A stretch of 64,000 bases of DNA. It comes from Acidobacteriota bacterium (GTDB lineage: Bacteria; Acidobacteriota; Blastocatellia; UBA7656). This document shows positions 10,122 through 42,797 of the stretch, in pieces. Position numbers and translations under genes: made by a program. Numbering within the stretch: the first letter of the stretch is position 1; each line of letters opens with the position of its first letter. The notes under the pieces were generated by a model. That model was not told where the DNA came from. It saw only the letters and a list, made by a program, of their open reading frames with translations, and ran no database searches. Location: contig JACQDB010000090.1 of NCBI GenBank assembly GCA_016201275.1, forward strand, positions 1 through 64,000. The letters run 5' to 3'.

Positions 10122-11234
10122 CTACTTCGCGCTGATTGAGATGCACACGTTGTCAAAGTAATACAACTGAACTCCTTGTTGGCTGGCAAAGATGCCGATG
10201 ACCACATACAGCGTCGAACTTTTTTTGGACTTCGCAGTGAATTGATACTGTTTGCGTTTCCAGGGCGAACCCGGTTTTCCGGTGTCTTCCTGATAGAACA
10301 ATTCCAAATCCGCTGCGCTTTCAGGGCGATCCCGCAACACGCCGGTTATCAAGGTCGAGTTGCGAACATCCAATTGGCTGAAAAAGCCATACTCCACGTT
10401 GACACGATATTTTCTTCCCGGTTCAACCGTGAAGGCTCGTTCAATCCAGACCTTTGCTTTGCCGTTAGAACTGTTGATCTCAAATTGCGCGGAGTTCTTG
10501 CCATCTTGAAAGAATTGTTGAGAGCGGGTAACAGACCAAGGCAGCGTGGTGCCTTGAGCTTCGACATCAATAGCCTTTGGTGTCCAACCTTCCAATTCAT
10601 TCTCAAAGGAAAAGAATTCGCAAGGAACTGATCTTCGAGCGATTTTAATATGAATGTTATCGAAGAAATAAGGTCTGCCAAACTCACCTGCACCGATGCC
10701 TATAAGAACGTATAGCTTTCCTTGCTCATCTGTATGTGCTGCAAATTCATATCTTTTTTTATACCATTTGTATTCGCCCGAAGTATTATTGTCATCACCT
10801 GTCGGTCCTTGACCAGTAAATCCAAGTTGTTCTCTTTTTGTTGGATCTGGACTGAGCCTGGAGACGCCCGTTAAAAGTGCCAAACTATTGGCACTGCAAC
10901 AATCTCTGGAGGCGAAATCATAATCAACTATAACGTCATAACTCTGGGTGGCCTCGACGGTATAGACTTTTTCTACCCAAACAATCTGAAAGGGGATACG
11001 CCGCCCTTCTACAATTCTCAATGAGGTTACTCCATCAGTCGCTCGTTCTTGACTGCGAGTTACAGGCGGCGGTAGGTCTGGCTCAAATTCCGTAGCACGT
11101 ATCCCCCATCCTTCAAAATCATTTTCAAACGAATAGGTTTCATCTATTGCCGGTGACTGATAGCCAAGCGAAGGATTGGCAAAAACTGTAGGCACGAACA
11201 GCAAGCCAATCATTAGGTATGCAATATATTTCAT
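10122..11234 (-). CDS. Secreted protein with two repeated beta-sandwich modules
   Basis: The 370-residue product has an N-terminal signal peptide (about 1-19, ending VFANP) and two homologous modules, roughly 33-200 and 205-370. Each opens with SFEN-x-x-EGW, continues with a VTRSQ stretch, and ends with a YVxIGI-x(n)-YFDNxxI block. This layout is that of jelly-roll carbohydrate-binding-like modules, so the protein may bind polysaccharide or the cell surface. No catalytic domain is present. It is next to the remnant of a secreted protease and likely belongs to the same exported set. The family was not recognised by name. Confidence 0.75.
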   Translation of the reverse strand: MKYIAYLMIGLLFVPTVFANPSLGYQSPAIDETYSFENDFEGWGIRATEFEPDLPPPVTRSQERATDGVTSLRIVEGRRIPFQIVWVEKVYTVEATQSYDVIVDYDFASRDCCSANSLALLTGVSRLSPDPTKREQLGFTGQGPTGDDNNTSGEYKWYKKRYEFAAHTDEQGKLYVLIGIGAGEFGRPYFFDNIHIKIARRSVPCEFFSFENELEGWTPKAIDVEAQGTTLPWSVTRSQQFFQDGKNSAQFEINSSNGKAKVWIERAFTVEPGRKYRVNVEYGFFSQLDVRNSTLITGVLRDRPESAADLELFYQEDTGKPGSPWKRKQYQFTAKSKKSSTLYVVIGIFASQQGVQLYYFDNVCISISAK

Positions 11235-11323
11235 CGTTCAACCTCCTTAGCGATTGCTGCTGACGATGAGCAACAATCGCTATGCAAAATCATTATTAAC
11301 TTCAAAATTAACTTCAAACTGAC

Positions 11324-12288
11324 TTATGGCACAGTCGTTGAGAAAGCGGTGCTTCCGATGAGCGATCCGTTATTCATATCCGCGCAATCTTGAGCGTTTT
11401 GCCCGTCAAAGCGCCATAAACCTTTGGTTTCTGCTATGCCTGTGACTCGGTTCTGGGGAGTAAAGTTACTGTTGTAGAGAGGATTGGCAGTTACTCTTAC
11501 TTCATCTATCAGACCGCTAAAATAGATTGAACTGGTAGCAGCACGACCAATATAGACAGGGCTTGTGCCTGTACCGGGCGCAAAAGTAGAAGATTTCGAG
11601 CCGTCAAGCACACCGTTCACATAAACTTTTAGAGTCAGTCCGCTCCACTGCCCGACTACGTGATACCACACGCCGGAGGAGAGAATTGTACTGCCGGTCA
11701 CAGAATCAAAGCTGGAGGCATTAGTAATGCGAATCAAGAGTTGAAAATTGTCCGTGTTGAAATCAAAGGATTTATAAACAGCTTTTGGGTTTTTGCCCAG
11801 ATGTCGCCTGTAAATCGTTGATTCTTTATTGCTGATTTCAACTCTTGATTCGCATAAGTAGTATTGGTCTAAGCGATCAAGATGCCAAGCATCGTATGCC
11901 GCCACCGGAGGGCCACCTATAGGTTGAGTGTTTGCTGTTTGACCTACAGCATTTTCTTCGACGAAATCAACTCTAGGGTCGCGGCTGATGGCAATCGCTG
12001 CGGCTTCAGGGATATCGTGAATCGAAAATCCTTTGATTGAGTGTCGGTAGGTAGCTTGCACTTTGCCGCTGCGCTGAATGCTGGCTAAGTTGGTTGTCAA
12101 CAAATCAATATCCTTATCAGCAACGCCATCGTTGAACACCACGATGTATTGATTGGGGATAGGTTTCTCTACTCTACGAAACTTATCCAAAGTGATTTGG
12201 TCTTGGCTTTTCACAGGCAACGATGCAATTGCAAAAAAACAAGAGTTGCGGTAACAAATAGAACTGTAGCTTTAAATCTCAAGGTCAT
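11324..12288 (-). pseudogene. Subtilase propeptide fused to LamG domain, catalytic domain missing, frameshifted signal peptide
   Basis: An ATG at 12288 with AAAGGA upstream starts a signal peptide that goes out of frame at a run of seven A (12233-12239) and stops soon after. One extra base there would join it smoothly to the downstream frame (reading AIASLPVKSQDQ). The downstream frame, open from a TTG at 12220, encodes an inhibitor I9-type propeptide (PNQYIVVFNDGVADKD to DPRVDFVEENAV), then the usual entry to a subtilisin domain (AYDAWHLDRLDQ). It then jumps to a LamG/concanavalin-like domain (GVWYHVVGQWSGLTLKVYV) with no Asp-His-Ser protease domain between. It is most likely a decayed S8 protease. 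An alternative for the frameshift alone is a homopolymer sequencing error. Confidence 0.75.
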
Positions 12289-34847: not shown

Positions 34848-37800
34848 ATGCTGCTTACCGGATGTCAAAATTTGCTTGATGTAGAAAAGCGTCTGCGAAA
34901 CGAGGTTCGTCATGTGACACTGCTTGGACAATTGTTCACGGAACAAGACGCGTCGATTTTGCAGGGTATGGTTTTAGAGAAATTCCTGAATGATTTTTCG
35001 GAACTAGAACGGCTGGGAGAATTAACCTTCTCCTGTTTTTTAGTGGCCATGGGAATTGGCGAATATAATCAAGGCACCTACTGGGCAAAAATAGAAAACC
35101 ATTTAAAAAAATCCGGCGGCAACTGGCAGCACCGCTGGGGCGAGCTATTCCTAAAGACCATCCGTAAGTACCACCTTACAGACTTTCCTCATGCCAAAGG
35201 GCATAAATATGTTACGCCGATTCTTTTGCATGGCGGCATTCCTGATAATTGTTTACAGGATTTCTTCAGTAAAGTTTTATACCCGATAGTCAGTGGGAAG
35301 TTGGATATTGATTCCCACAACCCTGAAGAAATTGTTGTGGAATGGAAGAATAAGGCTTCATATTATGCAACGACGGACAAGCCTGTGCGCCGTTTTCTTG
35401 AAGAAGGCGGCAAGCCTGCGGCTGATTTTTTGAGTCGTTGTCTGGAGATGGTTCGCGCCGCTCATTACGAAACACAATTTTTATCAGGTGAAGAATTGGG
35501 TATTCCCCATCGCGTTGCCGAACGCTTCAAACAATGGTGGAAAAATTATCTTCAGCCTACCTTGACCGAAAGTCACATCGCACTACGTCGTCCGCGCATT
35601 GAGTTCATCTCGCGCTACGGCGAAGTGCGCTGCACCATAATGGAGCAAACGCTTGCCAGCAACTCCAACGCGCCCGTTTCCCTACACGCCTTCGCAGATG
35701 GCACACGCCTTCTCTCTCAAGAACTGGATTGCTACAGGCGCTCAACATCAACCCTCACCGAGCCTGTAGAATTCCTCTTGCCGCCTGCTCATGACTACAA
35801 AATCAAGATACAGCAAGCTCCGCATATTTCGCGAGAATGGATTTTCAAAGGACTTGATGAGAATGCTTGGTTAGCCTTCGATGATAAAGATAATCTCATT
35901 TGTGCAAGCGAATTGCCGCACGCTTGCTTCTGGTTGATTCTGCACAAAGATGTGAAGTTCGCGTCCAATATTCGCATTATCGAACAAACGGAAGGCGCGG
36001 ATGCTTGGCGTGATTACCAAGGCTTTTTCATTGACGCATTGGAAGCCGAATCGCTGGCAATTCTCAAAGATAAGCAAACGATTCCTCTACCGTTGGCGAA
36101 AGATAAAGAGGCACAACTGTGCGGAAAAATCCTTGAAGGTTGCAGCGTTAATGATGTGCCGATTTATTCAGGGCAATTGCCCGTGCTGCAAATTCCCATA
36201 GCTTCTTGGAGTGATATTGATAGCTGGTACGTAGTGGTTGAAGAATTGTCGCATCGTTGGTTATCAAGAAAGCAAGTTGCTCTCAGCGAAGCCTTGCACA
36301 AAGCCGCAGACGGGAAAGCCATTCTGCATCTCGAACATCCAAAATTATTAGGCAATACGACATTGGGCGAGTTTCGCCTAAAGCTGCGCTCACGCGGTGC
36401 GTTGGGACGCGACAAACAATTTCAATTTGCGTTCATTCGAGATGTTGACTTTGAGTTTACCCGCGCCTTCTATCTGGCAAAGCAAACGCCAAAACTCACC
36501 CTCCTGACATCTTCAACCATCAAAGTTCTGTCGGAAGATGTCTCAACCATAATCCTCGGCAGCGCAGGCTCTTTTGAGATAACCAACAAATCCCAAGCTC
36601 GACAATTCACCTTGAACTTACAAAGCGAAGACCATCGAAAATTGCCGATTACCTTTAAGATTCCGCGACTGCGTTGGGCATTAAAAGATTTCGCCCACCA
36701 ACTCTCTACAGGTTGGCTTGATAAACCGCGAGAAGTTTCGTTTGACGATTTTGCGGCAAGCGACGAAGCCGTTTTAGTCATTGAATCGCCTTTGAAAGAT
36801 GGGACTATTGGCGTACTCGAATTGGAAGGCGCAGATCATCTGAGCGAGCAAAAAATTCGCCGAGGCGAAGCGCGGTTTGACTTGAGCCGCTTCAATGATT
36901 CGCTGCGTAGTTTGGCAAAATCGCTGGCGAAATTTCGGCTTTCATTTGTTGTTGGCTCGAACCATTTGCCTGCCGTCTATCCATTGTCTGTGCGTACTCG
37001 TTGGCTTGTCGAAAGCTTGGAGTGCCGCGACATTCGCACGGTGTCTCTCCAATGGAAAGATGCGGGGCATTTCAACAATCGCAAGCTGCGACTGTGGGAT
37101 TTGCGCCGTGTATGGCAACCGCCTAAAGAATATCGCATCCCTGATGGCGTATCCGAATTGACCATTCAAGAAGATGCTGCGTCGCTTCCCGCAGGACGCT
37201 ATCGCGCAGAGTTATTTTTAGAGAGCCAATACGCAACCGCACCGCCCGCTTTGCCGCCGCGAAAAAACGGCAAAGATATTTTTGATCTAGCGATTGGGCG
37301 CGAAGAGATAGACAGCTATTTGCTGGTCGCGCCCTTTTCGTTTCGGCGTTATCTGACTAGCAAACTCGCCGGATGCGAAGAGACCTTTGATTGGCATACC
37401 TCAACCATTGCCGATGAATTTATGCGCTATTCTTTGACCAGCGAAGAAATGGACACACTGTTTTACACGCTGCTCTTTCTGGCGCAAAATAACCAGGCAG
37501 CCATCGCCAAAACCATCTGGTTCACAGACCTGCATCAGCAAGCCAAACAGGAAAGCCTTAGAGACGCTTTGCGAGAACGCATCAAGCAATTTGCTCAACG
37601 TGGCGACGACACCACAAAGGCAGAACTCCGAAAGCTCTGTCAAACTATCGGCGTTGCGGTCAACGCGCTGATGCCTTTCGCTATTGAGTCGAAAGTGAAT
37701 TTCGACAATAAAATCGCGCTCTATAAAGGCATTCGGAAATGGACAGCAAGCAACTCCAGAAATCTCAAAGAAGAACCTTGGGATTTAATTTCTCTCGGCT

Positions 37801-37889
37801 ATGTGAACTCACAGTCTCGAATCGTTCATCTGTCTTTCCTTGATAAGATGGAGAAAGCGCCGGATGACGCGCCTTTGAGCGGCTATTGA
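34848..37889 (+). CDS. Large uncharacterised protein paired with a DUF1998 helicase (DruH-like candidate)
   Basis: The 1013-residue protein has no signal peptide or membrane helix, so it is cytoplasmic. The N-terminal 250 residues are alpha-helical, with a conserved-looking KYVTPILLHGGIPDNCLQDF. The middle and C-terminal parts are beta-rich. No enzyme motif is visible. It is 24 bases upstream of a 1627-residue helicase, in the same direction. That two-gene layout matches Druantia type III (DruH, DruE), and the N-terminal block resembles the STY4851/ECs_5259 family as I recall it. By analogy it would be part of an anti-phage complex. Codon use looks more AT-rich than in neighbours, at least to 35500, in line with transfer. 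Confidence 0.85.
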   Translation: MLLTGCQNLLDVEKRLRNEVRHVTLLGQLFTEQDASILQGMVLEKFLNDFSELERLGELTFSCFLVAMGIGEYNQGTYWAKIENHLKKSGGNWQHRWGELFLKTIRKYHLTDFPHAKGHKYVTPILLHGGIPDNCLQDFFSKVLYPIVSGKLDIDSHNPEEIVVEWKNKASYYATTDKPVRRFLEEGGKPAADFLSRCLEMVRAAHYETQFLSGEELGIPHRVAERFKQWWKNYLQPTLTESHIALRRPRIEFISRYGEVRCTIMEQTLASNSNAPVSLHAFADGTRLLSQELDCYRRSTSTLTEPVEFLLPPAHDYKIKIQQAPHISREWIFKGLDENAWLAFDDKDNLICASELPHACFWLILHKDVKFASNIRIIEQTEGADAWRDYQGFFIDALEAESLAILKDKQTIPLPLAKDKEAQLCGKILEGCSVNDVPIYSGQLPVLQIPIASWSDIDSWYVVVEELSHRWLSRKQVALSEALHKAADGKAILHLEHPKLLGNTTLGEFRLKLRSRGALGRDKQFQFAFIRDVDFEFTRAFYLAKQTPKLTLLTSSTIKVLSEDVSTIILGSAGSFEITNKSQARQFTLNLQSEDHRKLPITFKIPRLRWALKDFAHQLSTGWLDKPREVSFDDFAASDEAVLVIESPLKDGTIGVLELEGADHLSEQKIRRGEARFDLSRFNDSLRSLAKSLAKFRLSFVVGSNHLPAVYPLSVRTRWLVESLECRDIRTVSLQWKDAGHFNNRKLRLWDLRRVWQPPKEYRIPDGVSELTIQEDAASLPAGRYRAELFLESQYATAPPALPPRKNGKDIFDLAIGREEIDSYLLVAPFSFRRYLTSKLAGCEETFDWHTSTIADEFMRYSLTSEEMDTLFYTLLFLAQNNQAAIAKTIWFTDLHQQAKQESLRDALRERIKQFAQRGDDTTKAELRKLCQTIGVAVNALMPFAIESKVNFDNKIALYKGIRKWTASNSRNLKEEPWDLISLGYVNSQSRIVHLSFLDKMEKAPDDAPLSGY

Positions 37890-37913
37890 CACCCCAAAAA
37901 TAGCGGAGGTTTC

Positions 37914-40900
37914 ATGCAACAACTCAATCCTATTCTTGCGACTCAACGCATTCACCAATCCTACGCCAGATATTTGCAGACGCTTTATCCAATTGCTGAC
38001 GCTGAATTGCAACAACAGTTCAGGCAAATGCTTGCCGACAAACAAAAGCTTGTTAAAGGTCCTTATCTCGAAGCCACGCCGCCTTACCAAACAACCGGCA
38101 ACATCCATGACTTGATGAAGCAAGGTGTTCTTTCGCCGCTTTTTTCTGCGTTGCAGCACGGCAGCCTATCTCTTGAACGACCGCTCTACAAACATCAGGA
38201 ACAAGCCGTTCGCAAACTTGTCAACAATCGCAATCTGATCGTTGCCACAGGAACGGGCAGCGGCAAGACGGAAACTTTTTTGATCCCGATTCTTCATCAT
38301 CTGCTGGAAGAAAAACGTCGCGGCACCTTGTCAAAAGGGGTTCGCGCGCTCTTGCTTTATCCCATGAATGCGCTCGCCAATGACCAGATGAAACGGCTAC
38401 GCGCAATTTTGCAGGGCTGCGAATTTATCACCTTTGGTCGCTACACGGGCGACACCAAACAAAAAAAAGAAGACGCCGAAAAAGACTTTCAAGAAAACAG
38501 CAAAGGCGAACCGCGCATAAAAAATGAATTGCTCTCGCGTGCAGAGATGCAAGCCGCGCCGCCGCACATCTTGCTGACGAACTATGCCATGCTCGAATAC
38601 CTTTTGCTGCGCCCTGACGATTCGATTTTCTTTGATGGCGAGGAGGCGCGCCATTGGCGCTTCATCGTGATGGACGAAGTTCATACCTACGATGGCGCGA
38701 AAGGCATTGAAACGGCTATGCTGCTGCGACGGCTCAAAGACCGCATCGCGCAAAGCGAGCAGGGGCGCATTCAGTGCATAGGCACAAGCGCAACTTTGGG
38801 CGGTGGCAGAAAAGACTTTCGCGATGTAGCACGATTTGGCAAACAACTCTTTGACGAACAATTTGAATGGCTTGAAGACGACACCAACCGACAAGATGTC
38901 GTGGAAGCCTCACGCTTGATGCTCAAGCAAGATAGCGTTTGGGGCGTTCCGCAGCCGCAGTTTTATCAAGCCGCGCAAGATTTGCTTGACTCTACGGCTG
39001 CCAATATCGCCAAGCTTTCCATGCTTGCTCGCGCCTGTGGCGTACCGCATGAGGTGATTGAAAAAGCCGCGTTGTCTTGCAACGACGCAATACAACATTT
39101 TTTGTACAACCTGCTTTCAGGAGACGAAAATCTTGTACGACTGCGCCAGTTGCTGCGCGGCGACGCAACCCAAAGCAATAAGCCCATGTTGCTGAAAGAG
39201 GCTACAGGAGCCATTTTCAAGGCAGATACGAATGCTGAGATAAGCTTGACGGCGTTGGTCAATCTCGCAGTACAGGCGAAACCGGAAGGCGAACATGCGC
39301 CGCTTCTGCCTGCTCGTTACCATCTTTTCGCTAAGGCTTTGGAAGGCGGCTTCGTGGCTTTTGGCGCAACCAAACGACTGTTTTTGAATCGTCGCAAACA
39401 GACGGATGACCAAGAGCCTTTCGCCGTATTTGAAATGGCAACCTGCAAGCGTTGCGGCGCGATTCATGTTGTCGGAGTTATCGAAAAAGATGCCAAACGC
39501 TTGCTGCAATCACAAAAGATTAGCGAAGACAATTACGAACGAGCGCAGTTCTTTTTGCTGAAAGAAAATCCTCTCGACGAGCTTGATGAAGATGAAGAGG
39601 TTGCCGAACCCGATAGCGAAAGCGAAGACCAAGAGGAGGCGCACAAGCTCTGCGTCAAGTGCGCGGCGATTGATAGAGTCGGCGCGATGAAGACGCTTTG
39701 CGCTTGCGGCAGAAAGTGGGAGCGCACAGTTATCAAAATTTCAAATGAGAAAGGCGTGGCCACGCATTGCCGTTCGTGCGGTTCACGCAGTCCAAATTTA
39801 GTCATGCGATTTTTGACAGGGCAAGACGCCCCGGCAAGCGTTCTTGCGACGGCGTTGTATCAGGAAATCCCTGAGCGCGAAGTTCAACAGGCGACCGCAA
39901 ACGACGAAGATGACGAATATGGGCAAGCATTGGATGAAGTAAAGTTGGCGCGGCGACTGCTCATTTTTTCAGACAGCCGACAGAATGCCGCGTACTTTGC
40001 GCCGTATTTGGGCGACATCACTTATCTGCCGATTCTCTGGCGACGATTGATTATTCGCGCCCTGCAAAAACATGAGCGGGAGTTTATCAAAGGGCATTGG
40101 CAGGTCGAAGACTTAATTGAGCCGTTGCGAAAAGAAGCGCAAGAGTGCGGCATCTTTGACACTAAAATCAGCCGACGCGGACAAGAGCGCGAAGTGTGGA
40201 AATGGGTAATGCTTGAGCTAATGGCGCAAGACAGGCGCAACAGTTTGGAAGGTCTAGGACTGGTGCAATTCTCCATTGCCAAACCGCAAAATTGGCTTGC
40301 CGGTAAAACGCTTCAAGCGTTGCTGTTGCCGTATAATTTCAGCGATGCCGAAGTATGGCAACTCTTTGAAATTCTGCTGAACAGCTTTCGTTTGCAAGGC
40401 GTGATTCTGTTTCCCGATCAGGTGTCGCCCGATGACGAGATATTCAAACCGCGCAACCGCGCTTACTACTTTCGCAATCAAGGCGCGGTGAAAAATAAAC
40501 AGGTTTACAGTTGGTCGTCACCTGCAAAAAGGCGGCTCAATCGCCGACTTGATTTCGTGCAAAAGCTGTTGCAGCAAGGCGCGACCAACGAGGATATTCA
40601 AGAATTAGCGAAACAAATTTTGCATCAGGTTTGGCAGAATCTAACCGACTCGCCTTTTTGGAAAAATCATTTCAGCGACACACCGATTCAAGGTGAAGGC
40701 AGAGCTTACCAACTTCGTCACGATTGCTGGGAGATAGCGCCAACATTCGATGCCTCACAAAACATCTGGCACGAGTGCGATACTTGCGGCAATCTTTTCA
40801 ATCATAACTTGCGCGGCGTTTGTCCGACCTACAGATGTGAAGGGACGTTGCGCTCGTGCAATCCCGAAGAAACCAAGCGCGACAATCATTATCGCTATCT

Positions 40901-42797
40901 CTATTTGAACTTGTTGCCGATGCGGATGATTTGCAAAGAACACACGGCGCAACTCACGGGCGATGCCGCAAGCATACTGCAAAATCAATTCATTCGCGGC
41001 GCAGTCAACGTCATCAGTTGTTCGACTACTTTTGAACTTGGTGTAGATGTCGGTTCACTTGAATCTGTGTTGATGCGAAACGTGCCGCCATCGCCTGCCA
41101 ACTATATTCAACGCGCCGGTCGCGCTGGTCGGCGCACCGATTCGACTGCCTTCGCGCTGACTTTTTGCCAGCGTCGTTCACACGACCTGACCTATTTTCA
41201 AACGCCTGAGCGGATGATTGCCGGAACCATTCGCCCACCTGCTTTTGAAGTGCGAAACAAAAAAATCATTCAGCGGCACATTCATTCGGTTGCGCTAGCG
41301 ATGTTTTGGAAAGAACACAAGGCGCTCTTCAACAAAGTGAAAGATTTTTTCTTTGCCGTTGAAGGCAGCGAGATAAAAAACCGCGAAGCGTTTTTTGCAA
41401 CGCACCCGCTGAGAGAATTTCTTGAACGCAAACCGCCGCTGCTGCTTGAAGCATTGAAGCGCATACTCAAAGAGCAACACGTGGATTTTAAGATAGAGAG
41501 TTGGGAGTGGCTTGACGAGTTCTTCTTTTCAAAAGATTCTCCTTTGCAGAAAGCCGCAGATGAATTGTACGGCGATGTGGCGGACATGGAATCTTATTGC
41601 AAGGAGTTAATCGCCGAGGGCAGCCGTGATTCTCTTTTCAGAGCAATTAAAATTGGCGACACGATCAAAACCATTCAGAGCAAGCCGATTATTAATTTCC
41701 TTTCGACACGCGGCGTGTTGCCTAAGTATGGCTTCCCTGTGGATGTGGTTGAGTTGCAATTGCTGCATCACGGCGACGAGGCAAAATTTTTAGAGTTGCA
41801 ACGCGACCTTCGCATTGCGCTTGCCGAATACGCGCCGGAAAGCCAAGTCATAGCGGGTGGCAAACTCTGGACAAGCTACGCCATCAAGAAAGTCCCGAAA
41901 CGCGAATGGCGAAAATTCAAGTATGCGATTTGTAATCATTGCAATTGCTATCAGCGTGTTGCAGAGGCGACGGGCAAAGCGATTGAGGTTTGCCAAAGTT
42001 GCGACCAAAGGATTGACGGCAGAAACGCCAAAGGCACTTTCATCATTCCTGAATTCGGCTTTGTCTCAAGCCGGTTTCAACCTCCTGTGCAACCGACTTC
42101 GGCAAGACCCGAAAGAAGCTACCTCACGCCACAGATTTTTTACACAGGCGAATTTTTCAGAGAAGAAAAAAACGTAACGATGACCATCGGCGATCTTCCC
42201 ATTGCCGCGCAAGCCTTGTCAGACGGGCGCTTCGCCATGTTGAATCGCGCAGGGTTCCAAGTCTGTTTTCACTGCGGTTATGCAGAGAGAGAAAAACTTG
42301 AGAGGAAGAAGAAAACCCCGCATAAAATCTCGCATAAAACCCCGCAAGGCAAAGAGTGTCTTGGCGCTTTACAGCACACCGATTTAGGACACGAATTTCA
42401 AACCGACCTCTTGCGGCTTGAGATTGGCGACCATCGCTACTCTAGTGACTTCTGGTTGTCCTTGCTCTTTGCGTTGCTTGAAGGCGCGAGCGAATCGCTT
42501 TCTGTCATACGCACAGACATAGACGGTTGCCTCTATCCGTACAAAGGCAGTTCGTCGCCTTCGTTGGTCTTATTTGATAATGTGCCGGGCGGCGCAGGTC
42601 ACGTTAGACGGCTCGTTGAAGGTGAGCAACCCATCAAAGCTATGCTGCTTGCGGCAAGAGATAAAGTAAATGGGAAATGTGGGTGCAAAGAAGACACAAG
42701 CTGCTACGGGTGTTTGCAAAACTACGGCAATCAACGCCATCACGACGACCTCAAACGCGGACAGGTTTTCAACTTCCTGCAAAGTTTGCCTGGTTAA
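37914..42797 (+). CDS. DEAD/DEAH helicase with DUF1998/MZB C-terminus (DruE-like candidate)
   Basis: The 1627-residue protein is a superfamily 2 helicase. RecA1 carries ATGTGSGKTETFL (motif I), LLLYPMNALANDQ (Ia), the DEVH box in MDEVHTYDGAKG, and GTSATLGGG (III). RecA2 is about 650 residues later, with STTFELGVDVGSLESVLMRN (V) and YIQRAGRAGRR (VI). The long insert has Cys-rich zinc sites, including CKRCGAIH and HECDTCGNLF. The C-terminus is the DUF1998/MZB region, with DNVPGGAGHVRRLVEG and the CGCKEDTSCYGCLQNYGNQ cysteines. Large helicases of this layout include DruE of Druantia and DISARM or Hrq1-like proteins. The neighbour favours Druantia III. A REP-like repeat lies within the gene at 39193-39222. 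Confidence 0.92.
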   Translation: MQQLNPILATQRIHQSYARYLQTLYPIADAELQQQFRQMLADKQKLVKGPYLEATPPYQTTGNIHDLMKQGVLSPLFSALQHGSLSLERPLYKHQEQAVRKLVNNRNLIVATGTGSGKTETFLIPILHHLLEEKRRGTLSKGVRALLLYPMNALANDQMKRLRAILQGCEFITFGRYTGDTKQKKEDAEKDFQENSKGEPRIKNELLSRAEMQAAPPHILLTNYAMLEYLLLRPDDSIFFDGEEARHWRFIVMDEVHTYDGAKGIETAMLLRRLKDRIAQSEQGRIQCIGTSATLGGGRKDFRDVARFGKQLFDEQFEWLEDDTNRQDVVEASRLMLKQDSVWGVPQPQFYQAAQDLLDSTAANIAKLSMLARACGVPHEVIEKAALSCNDAIQHFLYNLLSGDENLVRLRQLLRGDATQSNKPMLLKEATGAIFKADTNAEISLTALVNLAVQAKPEGEHAPLLPARYHLFAKALEGGFVAFGATKRLFLNRRKQTDDQEPFAVFEMATCKRCGAIHVVGVIEKDAKRLLQSQKISEDNYERAQFFLLKENPLDELDEDEEVAEPDSESEDQEEAHKLCVKCAAIDRVGAMKTLCACGRKWERTVIKISNEKGVATHCRSCGSRSPNLVMRFLTGQDAPASVLATALYQEIPEREVQQATANDEDDEYGQALDEVKLARRLLIFSDSRQNAAYFAPYLGDITYLPILWRRLIIRALQKHEREFIKGHWQVEDLIEPLRKEAQECGIFDTKISRRGQEREVWKWVMLELMAQDRRNSLEGLGLVQFSIAKPQNWLAGKTLQALLLPYNFSDAEVWQLFEILLNSFRLQGVILFPDQVSPDDEIFKPRNRAYYFRNQGAVKNKQVYSWSSPAKRRLNRRLDFVQKLLQQGATNEDIQELAKQILHQVWQNLTDSPFWKNHFSDTPIQGEGRAYQLRHDCWEIAPTFDASQNIWHECDTCGNLFNHNLRGVCPTYRCEGTLRSCNPEETKRDNHYRYLYLNLLPMRMICKEHTAQLTGDAASILQNQFIRGAVNVISCSTTFELGVDVGSLESVLMRNVPPSPANYIQRAGRAGRRTDSTAFALTFCQRRSHDLTYFQTPERMIAGTIRPPAFEVRNKKIIQRHIHSVALAMFWKEHKALFNKVKDFFFAVEGSEIKNREAFFATHPLREFLERKPPLLLEALKRILKEQHVDFKIESWEWLDEFFFSKDSPLQKAADELYGDVADMESYCKELIAEGSRDSLFRAIKIGDTIKTIQSKPIINFLSTRGVLPKYGFPVDVVELQLLHHGDEAKFLELQRDLRIALAEYAPESQVIAGGKLWTSYAIKKVPKREWRKFKYAICNHCNCYQRVAEATGKAIEVCQSCDQRIDGRNAKGTFIIPEFGFVSSRFQPPVQPTSARPERSYLTPQIFYTGEFFREEKNVTMTIGDLPIAAQALSDGRFAMLNRAGFQVCFHCGYAEREKLERKKKTPHKISHKTPQGKECLGALQHTDLGHEFQTDLLRLEIGDHRYSSDFWLSLLFALLEGASESLSVIRTDIDGCLYPYKGSSSPSLVLFDNVPGGAGHVRRLVEGEQPIKAMLLAARDKVNGKCGCKEDTSCYGCLQNYGNQRHHDDLKRGQVFNFLQSLPG
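39193..39222 (+). repeat. REP-like palindrome inside the helicase coding sequence
   Basis: TGAAAGAGGCTACAGGAGCC followed by ATTTTCAAGG matches the intergenic repeat core (copies at 5155, 5281-5362 and 30682) with only a few differences. It is in frame, encoding about ten residues (LKEATGAIFKA), and the gene stays open. Confidence 0.7.

Follow-up and report, generated by a model that had tools for sequence, protein, structure and literature searches.

A divergent Druantia type III-like gene pair, probably an anti-phage system, in a relative of Pyrinomonas

Canonical Druantia type III, the DruH-DruE system, has been characterised from E. coli and M. smegmatis (Wu et al., PMC13192584; Li and He, PMC13316683). 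DruH is built in the order helical N-terminus, Ig-like domains, helical C-terminus (PMC13192584), and the partner is reported to diverge more than the helicase when DruH is compared with DruE (PMC13192584, PMC13316683). A "Druantia Type III-like" helicase branch, separate from canonical type III, was described by Bell et al. in 2025 (PMC12458937); according to the text of that paper its members mostly have no nuclease domain and occasionally have a PLD domain, and Figure 3 lists Druantia Type III-A and III-B as well. The main text of Bell et al. makes no mention of DruH and describes no partner for the "Type III-like" branch.

The window, a stretch of 64,000 nucleotides from an Acidobacteriota bacterium related to Pyrinomonas (Acidobacteria) (GCA_016201275.1, contig JACQDB010000090.1), contains two intact plus-strand genes at 34848-42797. 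P1 (34848..37889, 1013 aa), the DruH-like partner gene, is followed by P2 (37914..42797, 1627 aa), a DruE-like YprA-family SF2 helicase with an MZB domain; the TGA stop of P1 at 37887-37889 is separated by 24 bases from the P2 ATG at 37914, and a GGAGG at 37905-37909 lies shortly 5' of the P2 start. An earlier note on this DNA, made from the letters and their open reading frames, had reported two co-directional genes of these lengths and this spacing, bounded by unrelated housekeeping genes, and both the coordinates and the intactness of the genes were confirmed. Upstream are genes for HtrA, MltG/YceG, RuvX and an S41 peptidase, and downstream is a gene for a Sortilin/Vps10-BNR protein, so that the immediate neighbours of the pair in the window are indeed housekeeping genes. 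We consider it probable that P1 and P2 together make up a divergent anti-phage system of the Druantia type III-like kind, which probably reached this genome by horizontal transfer.

By its sequence, P2 is a Druantia-type helicase. Pfam identifies DEAD (1.9e-24), Helicase_C and MZB (1.4e-10) domains. Motifs I, II and III were assigned to RecA1 (DEAD, aa 93-296; 38190..38801, plus strand) and motifs V and VI to RecA2 (Helicase_C, aa 1006-1074; 40929..41135, plus strand). Motifs I, II (DEVH), III (TSAT), V and VI and the MZB cysteines are intact in P2 and kept in its relatives, in agreement with the helicase motifs and DUF1998/MZB C-terminus that had been noticed in the 1627-residue protein. A cysteine cluster region (aa 511-622; 39444..39779, plus strand), comprising C511, C514, C580, C583, C596, C598, C619 and C622, is conserved in the P2 clade, and C580, C583, C596 and C598 are missing in canonical DruE-III. 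The closest solved-structure sequence found by phmmer is 9tu7, a helicase of 2108 aa (2.5e-76). When P2 was scored with the PADLOC models, DruE1 gave 619 bits, DruE3 553 and DruE2 446.

In a maximum likelihood tree of 27 helicases, P2 falls in its own clade (support 100), the sister of which is formed by the helicases of cyanobacterial plasmids (98). Together they are placed inside the Druantia group (92), and outside canonical type III (100) and type I (100). The MZB/DUF1998 zinc-binding domain of P2 (aa 1520-1601; 42471..42716, plus strand) is close to the end of the protein: only 27 residues follow C1600, the last zinc cysteine, compared with 387-414 in three canonical DruE-III proteins. 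A basal member from the window's own family (L049) retains a tail of 366 residues with a weak PLD-like match; it is therefore possible that the window's lineage once had the tail and lost it.

Neither PADLOC nor NCBIfam matches P1, and Pfam gives no match that passes its threshold. The AF2 model of P1 (pLDDT 75, pTM 0.43) predicts a helical N-terminus, a beta-rich Ig-like array and a helical C-terminus. The all-helical N-terminal domain (aa 1-240; 34848..35567, plus strand), with the motif YVTPILLHGGIP, is the most conserved part (47% to Pyrinomonas). The predicted tandem Ig-like/FnIII-like domains (aa 241-817; 35568..37298, plus strand) resemble Ig/FnIII arrays in Foldseek and VIA-align comparisons, with VIA Z values of 8.8 at most, barely above a level that models of this sort often reach without a clear match; the C-terminal helical domain (aa 818-945; 37299..37682, plus strand) is modelled with lower confidence. 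Comparison of P1 with solved-structure sequences gave nothing meaningful, and a fold search of the N-terminal domain against the PDB and viral models gave a best E of 1.3. The solved DruH (9tud) is not among the fold-search matches, an absence that is uninformative with a structure library that ends in April 2026. No P1 was found in plasmids and viral contigs, and a DruH search of viral contigs also found nothing.

DruH models match neither P1 nor its relatives, and a Chryseobacterium DruH used as the positive control scores 131 bits. Profile comparison by hhalign aligned the P1 family with the DruH N-terminus over 111 co-linear columns (E 0.00095, probability 22%), in the N-terminal domain only; the full-length profiles gave an E of 0.04. 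The N-terminal match scores 29, compared with 16 for the best unrelated window, it improves as relatives are added, and on both sides the aligned segment ends in a GG[IL]P motif. This suggests, short of proof, that the N-terminal domain of P1 is remotely homologous to that of DruH. All nine pairs compared show greater divergence in P1 than in P2. The earlier proposal of a Druantia type III-like pair, to be checked against DruH and DruE models, is therefore partly supported: the best matches of P2 are the DruE models, and P1 is unmatched by DruH, with P2 outside the canonical DruE-III clade and devoid of the nuclease tail. "Druantia III-like" is the right label for the pair, which does not amount to a Druantia III in the sense of the DruH and DruE models. 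Since PADLOC finds no DruH-type partner here, model-based annotation would probably miss both this pair and its relatives.

The lack of DruH model matches to P1 and its relatives, the weakness of the P1/DruH profile match, and the position of P2 in its own clade, with cysteine clusters missing in canonical DruE-III, would also fit a separate defence system that has only the helicase in common with Druantia. P1 would then be an unrelated sensor with convergent Ig-like domains, and the system would merit its own name, like ARMADA, BRIGADE and TALON. We regard this as unlikely, because the two-gene order and the helical/Ig/helical layout are as for DruH, and because the N-terminal match is co-linear, strengthens with added relatives and stands above the control windows.

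As a cassette of two genes, P1-P2 is conserved in both Acidobacteria and Clostridia, and defence islands are a frequent location. P1-like proteins of 835-1616 aa are encoded directly 5' of P2-like helicases in many other genomes, and the pairing is therefore not due to chance; carriers include Pyrinomonas methylaliphatogenes, MAG J014, MAG J119, the Clostridiales MAG DTU069 and several others. The distribution is sparse, the P1 profile matching 5 of 162 genomes searched in the class. Some relatives adjoin a type I RM system (L053, L054), DrmB (L056) or a type IIG RM-like gene (L016). In three others, the cassette is found inside a type I-G CRISPR-Cas operon: in P. methylaliphatogenes (L010:9744-19377) and a close MAG (L015:2962-12184) the end of the helicase gene and the start of cas4-cas1 share 4 bases, and in MAG J014 (L011:8012-19258) the pair is separated from csb2 before it by 38 bases and from cas4-cas1 after it by 98. 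These arrangements raise the question of whether P1-P2 is a CRISPR-Cas accessory module, in which the helicase makes or processes DNA for Cas4-Cas1 spacer uptake. This is very unlikely, because the window genome has no Cas4-Cas1 match, no P2 adjoins any other related cas4-cas1 locus retrieved from the class, and other relatives sit beside RM or DrmB genes instead; class-wide, only two of the genomes that have a close type I-G cas4-cas1 (G086, G315) match the P1 profile. The simplest reading is of P1-P2 as a mobile defence cassette whose insertion site is sometimes a CRISPR operon.

It is also very unlikely that P2 is a DNA-repair helicase of the MrfA/YprA kind beside an unrelated upstream gene, as the presence of an MZB/DUF1998 domain, the absence of a C-terminal nuclease and the failure to find a second MZB protein in the window genome would allow, given that solved MrfA/YprA matches P2 at 1.8e-14, weaker than 9tu7 by so many orders of magnitude that an MrfA identity was rejected, that the partner is conserved yet fast-evolving, and that the pair has a sporadic distribution, defence neighbourhoods and low GC.

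Variant forms of the pair were also encountered. The P1 homologues at L016:9989-13957 and L051:8759-13609 have long inserts, coiled-coil-like in appearance, after the N-terminal domain. At L055:8891-19675, a P1-like protein whose match to the family profile starts only at about profile position 177 is accompanied by its helicase, and downstream is a 707-aa UvrD/GajB-like helicase that resembles ARMADA ArmD. At L052:9637-12491, the N-terminal 455 aa of a P1-like protein precede a helicase of which only the C-terminal 484 aa are left, and this shortened copy is probably a decayed system.

Base composition and codon use, which the earlier note had suggested comparing with those of the flanking genes, are lower in GC for the pair: 47.7% for P1 and 50.0% for P2 against 52-56% for most neighbours, with GC3 of 0.49 and 0.54 against 0.59-0.71. 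The HtrA-MltG-RuvX-S41 block upstream of the pair is also present in a member of the same family (G259), and MltG-RuvX-S41 in G009. In G259 the upstream block is kept and the downstream Vps10-like gene is on another contig, and P1-P2 therefore lies at a junction in synteny, in keeping with horizontal acquisition though no proof of it. Elsewhere in the window, on the minus strand at 10122-12220, are two further low-GC genes (GC 0.45-0.46, GC3 0.44-0.45), one of which carries Laminin_G_3 and Inhibitor_I9 domains; this is possibly another acquired segment.

From the relatives, the neighbourhood and the architecture, we infer that a Druantia type III-like P1-P2 system would act in phage defence. 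The analogy with DruH-DruE suggests that P2 would load onto DNA whose 3' single strands are exposed, for example phage replication intermediates, and would use ATP to unwind or stall such DNA. Infection would be sensed by P1, whose fast-evolving Ig-like array may recognise a phage protein and license P2. Because P2 has no PLD nuclease, any destruction of DNA would have to come from P1, DruH having a dimer-dependent nuclease, or from host nucleases; alternatively, the P2 helicase might merely block phage replication. A more elaborate version, to which we give little credence, is a nuclease-free Druantia-type branch in which an Ig-like sensor licenses a helicase whose PLD nuclease was lost and which, in the Pyrinomonas relatives, has turned into a working part of a type I-G CRISPR-Cas operon, supplying DNA to Cas4-Cas1. 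The arrangement with cas4-cas1 in one operon hints at a connection, open to testing, between Druantia-type helicases and CRISPR adaptation. Whether Druantia III needs a nuclease of its own could naturally be tested on a clade such as this, in which the helicase is intact and the PLD nuclease absent.

Among named systems, DISARM was rejected as the identity of P2: DrmA scores only 59 bits against 619 for DruE, and the helicase parts that DISARM divides between drmA and drmB are both present in the single P2 protein. ARMADA type II (Bell et al. 2025, PMC12458937) shares a YprA-family helicase with cysteine clusters but requires BrxHII-like and PglX-like genes, neither of which adjoins P1-P2, and its helicases are distinct from P2 in the tree. 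The cyanobacterial plasmid systems (L005-L007) have a P1 homologue (hhalign 1.8e-12) upstream of the sister helicase; they differ by an extra gene of about 310 aa in between and a longer helicase tail (358-394 aa). One of them (L005:4373-14249) encodes an 898-aa P1 homologue, a 310-aa protein and a 2082-aa helicase, and PADLOC matched neither the P1 homologue nor the 310-aa protein.

With canonical Druantia type III, P1-P2 shares two adjacent co-directional genes with the partner upstream, a partner of about 1000 aa with helical ends around an Ig-like array (in P1 as predicted only), a YprA-family helicase with RecA domains and MZB, and a partner that diverges more than the helicase. It differs in that P1 is unmatched by DruH models, and in that P2 shares about 29% identity with E. 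coli DruE, belongs to another clade and lacks the C-terminal region of about 390-415 residues that bears the PLD domains of DruE. P2 and most of its relatives have no nuclease, and L049 has its weak PLD-like tail, as in the "Type III-like" branch of Bell et al., a correspondence of description rather than of the representatives' sequences. P1-P2 is consistent with that branch as the paper portrays it (PMC12458937), and its conserved pairing puts P1 forward as a possible partner of the "Type III-like" helicases.
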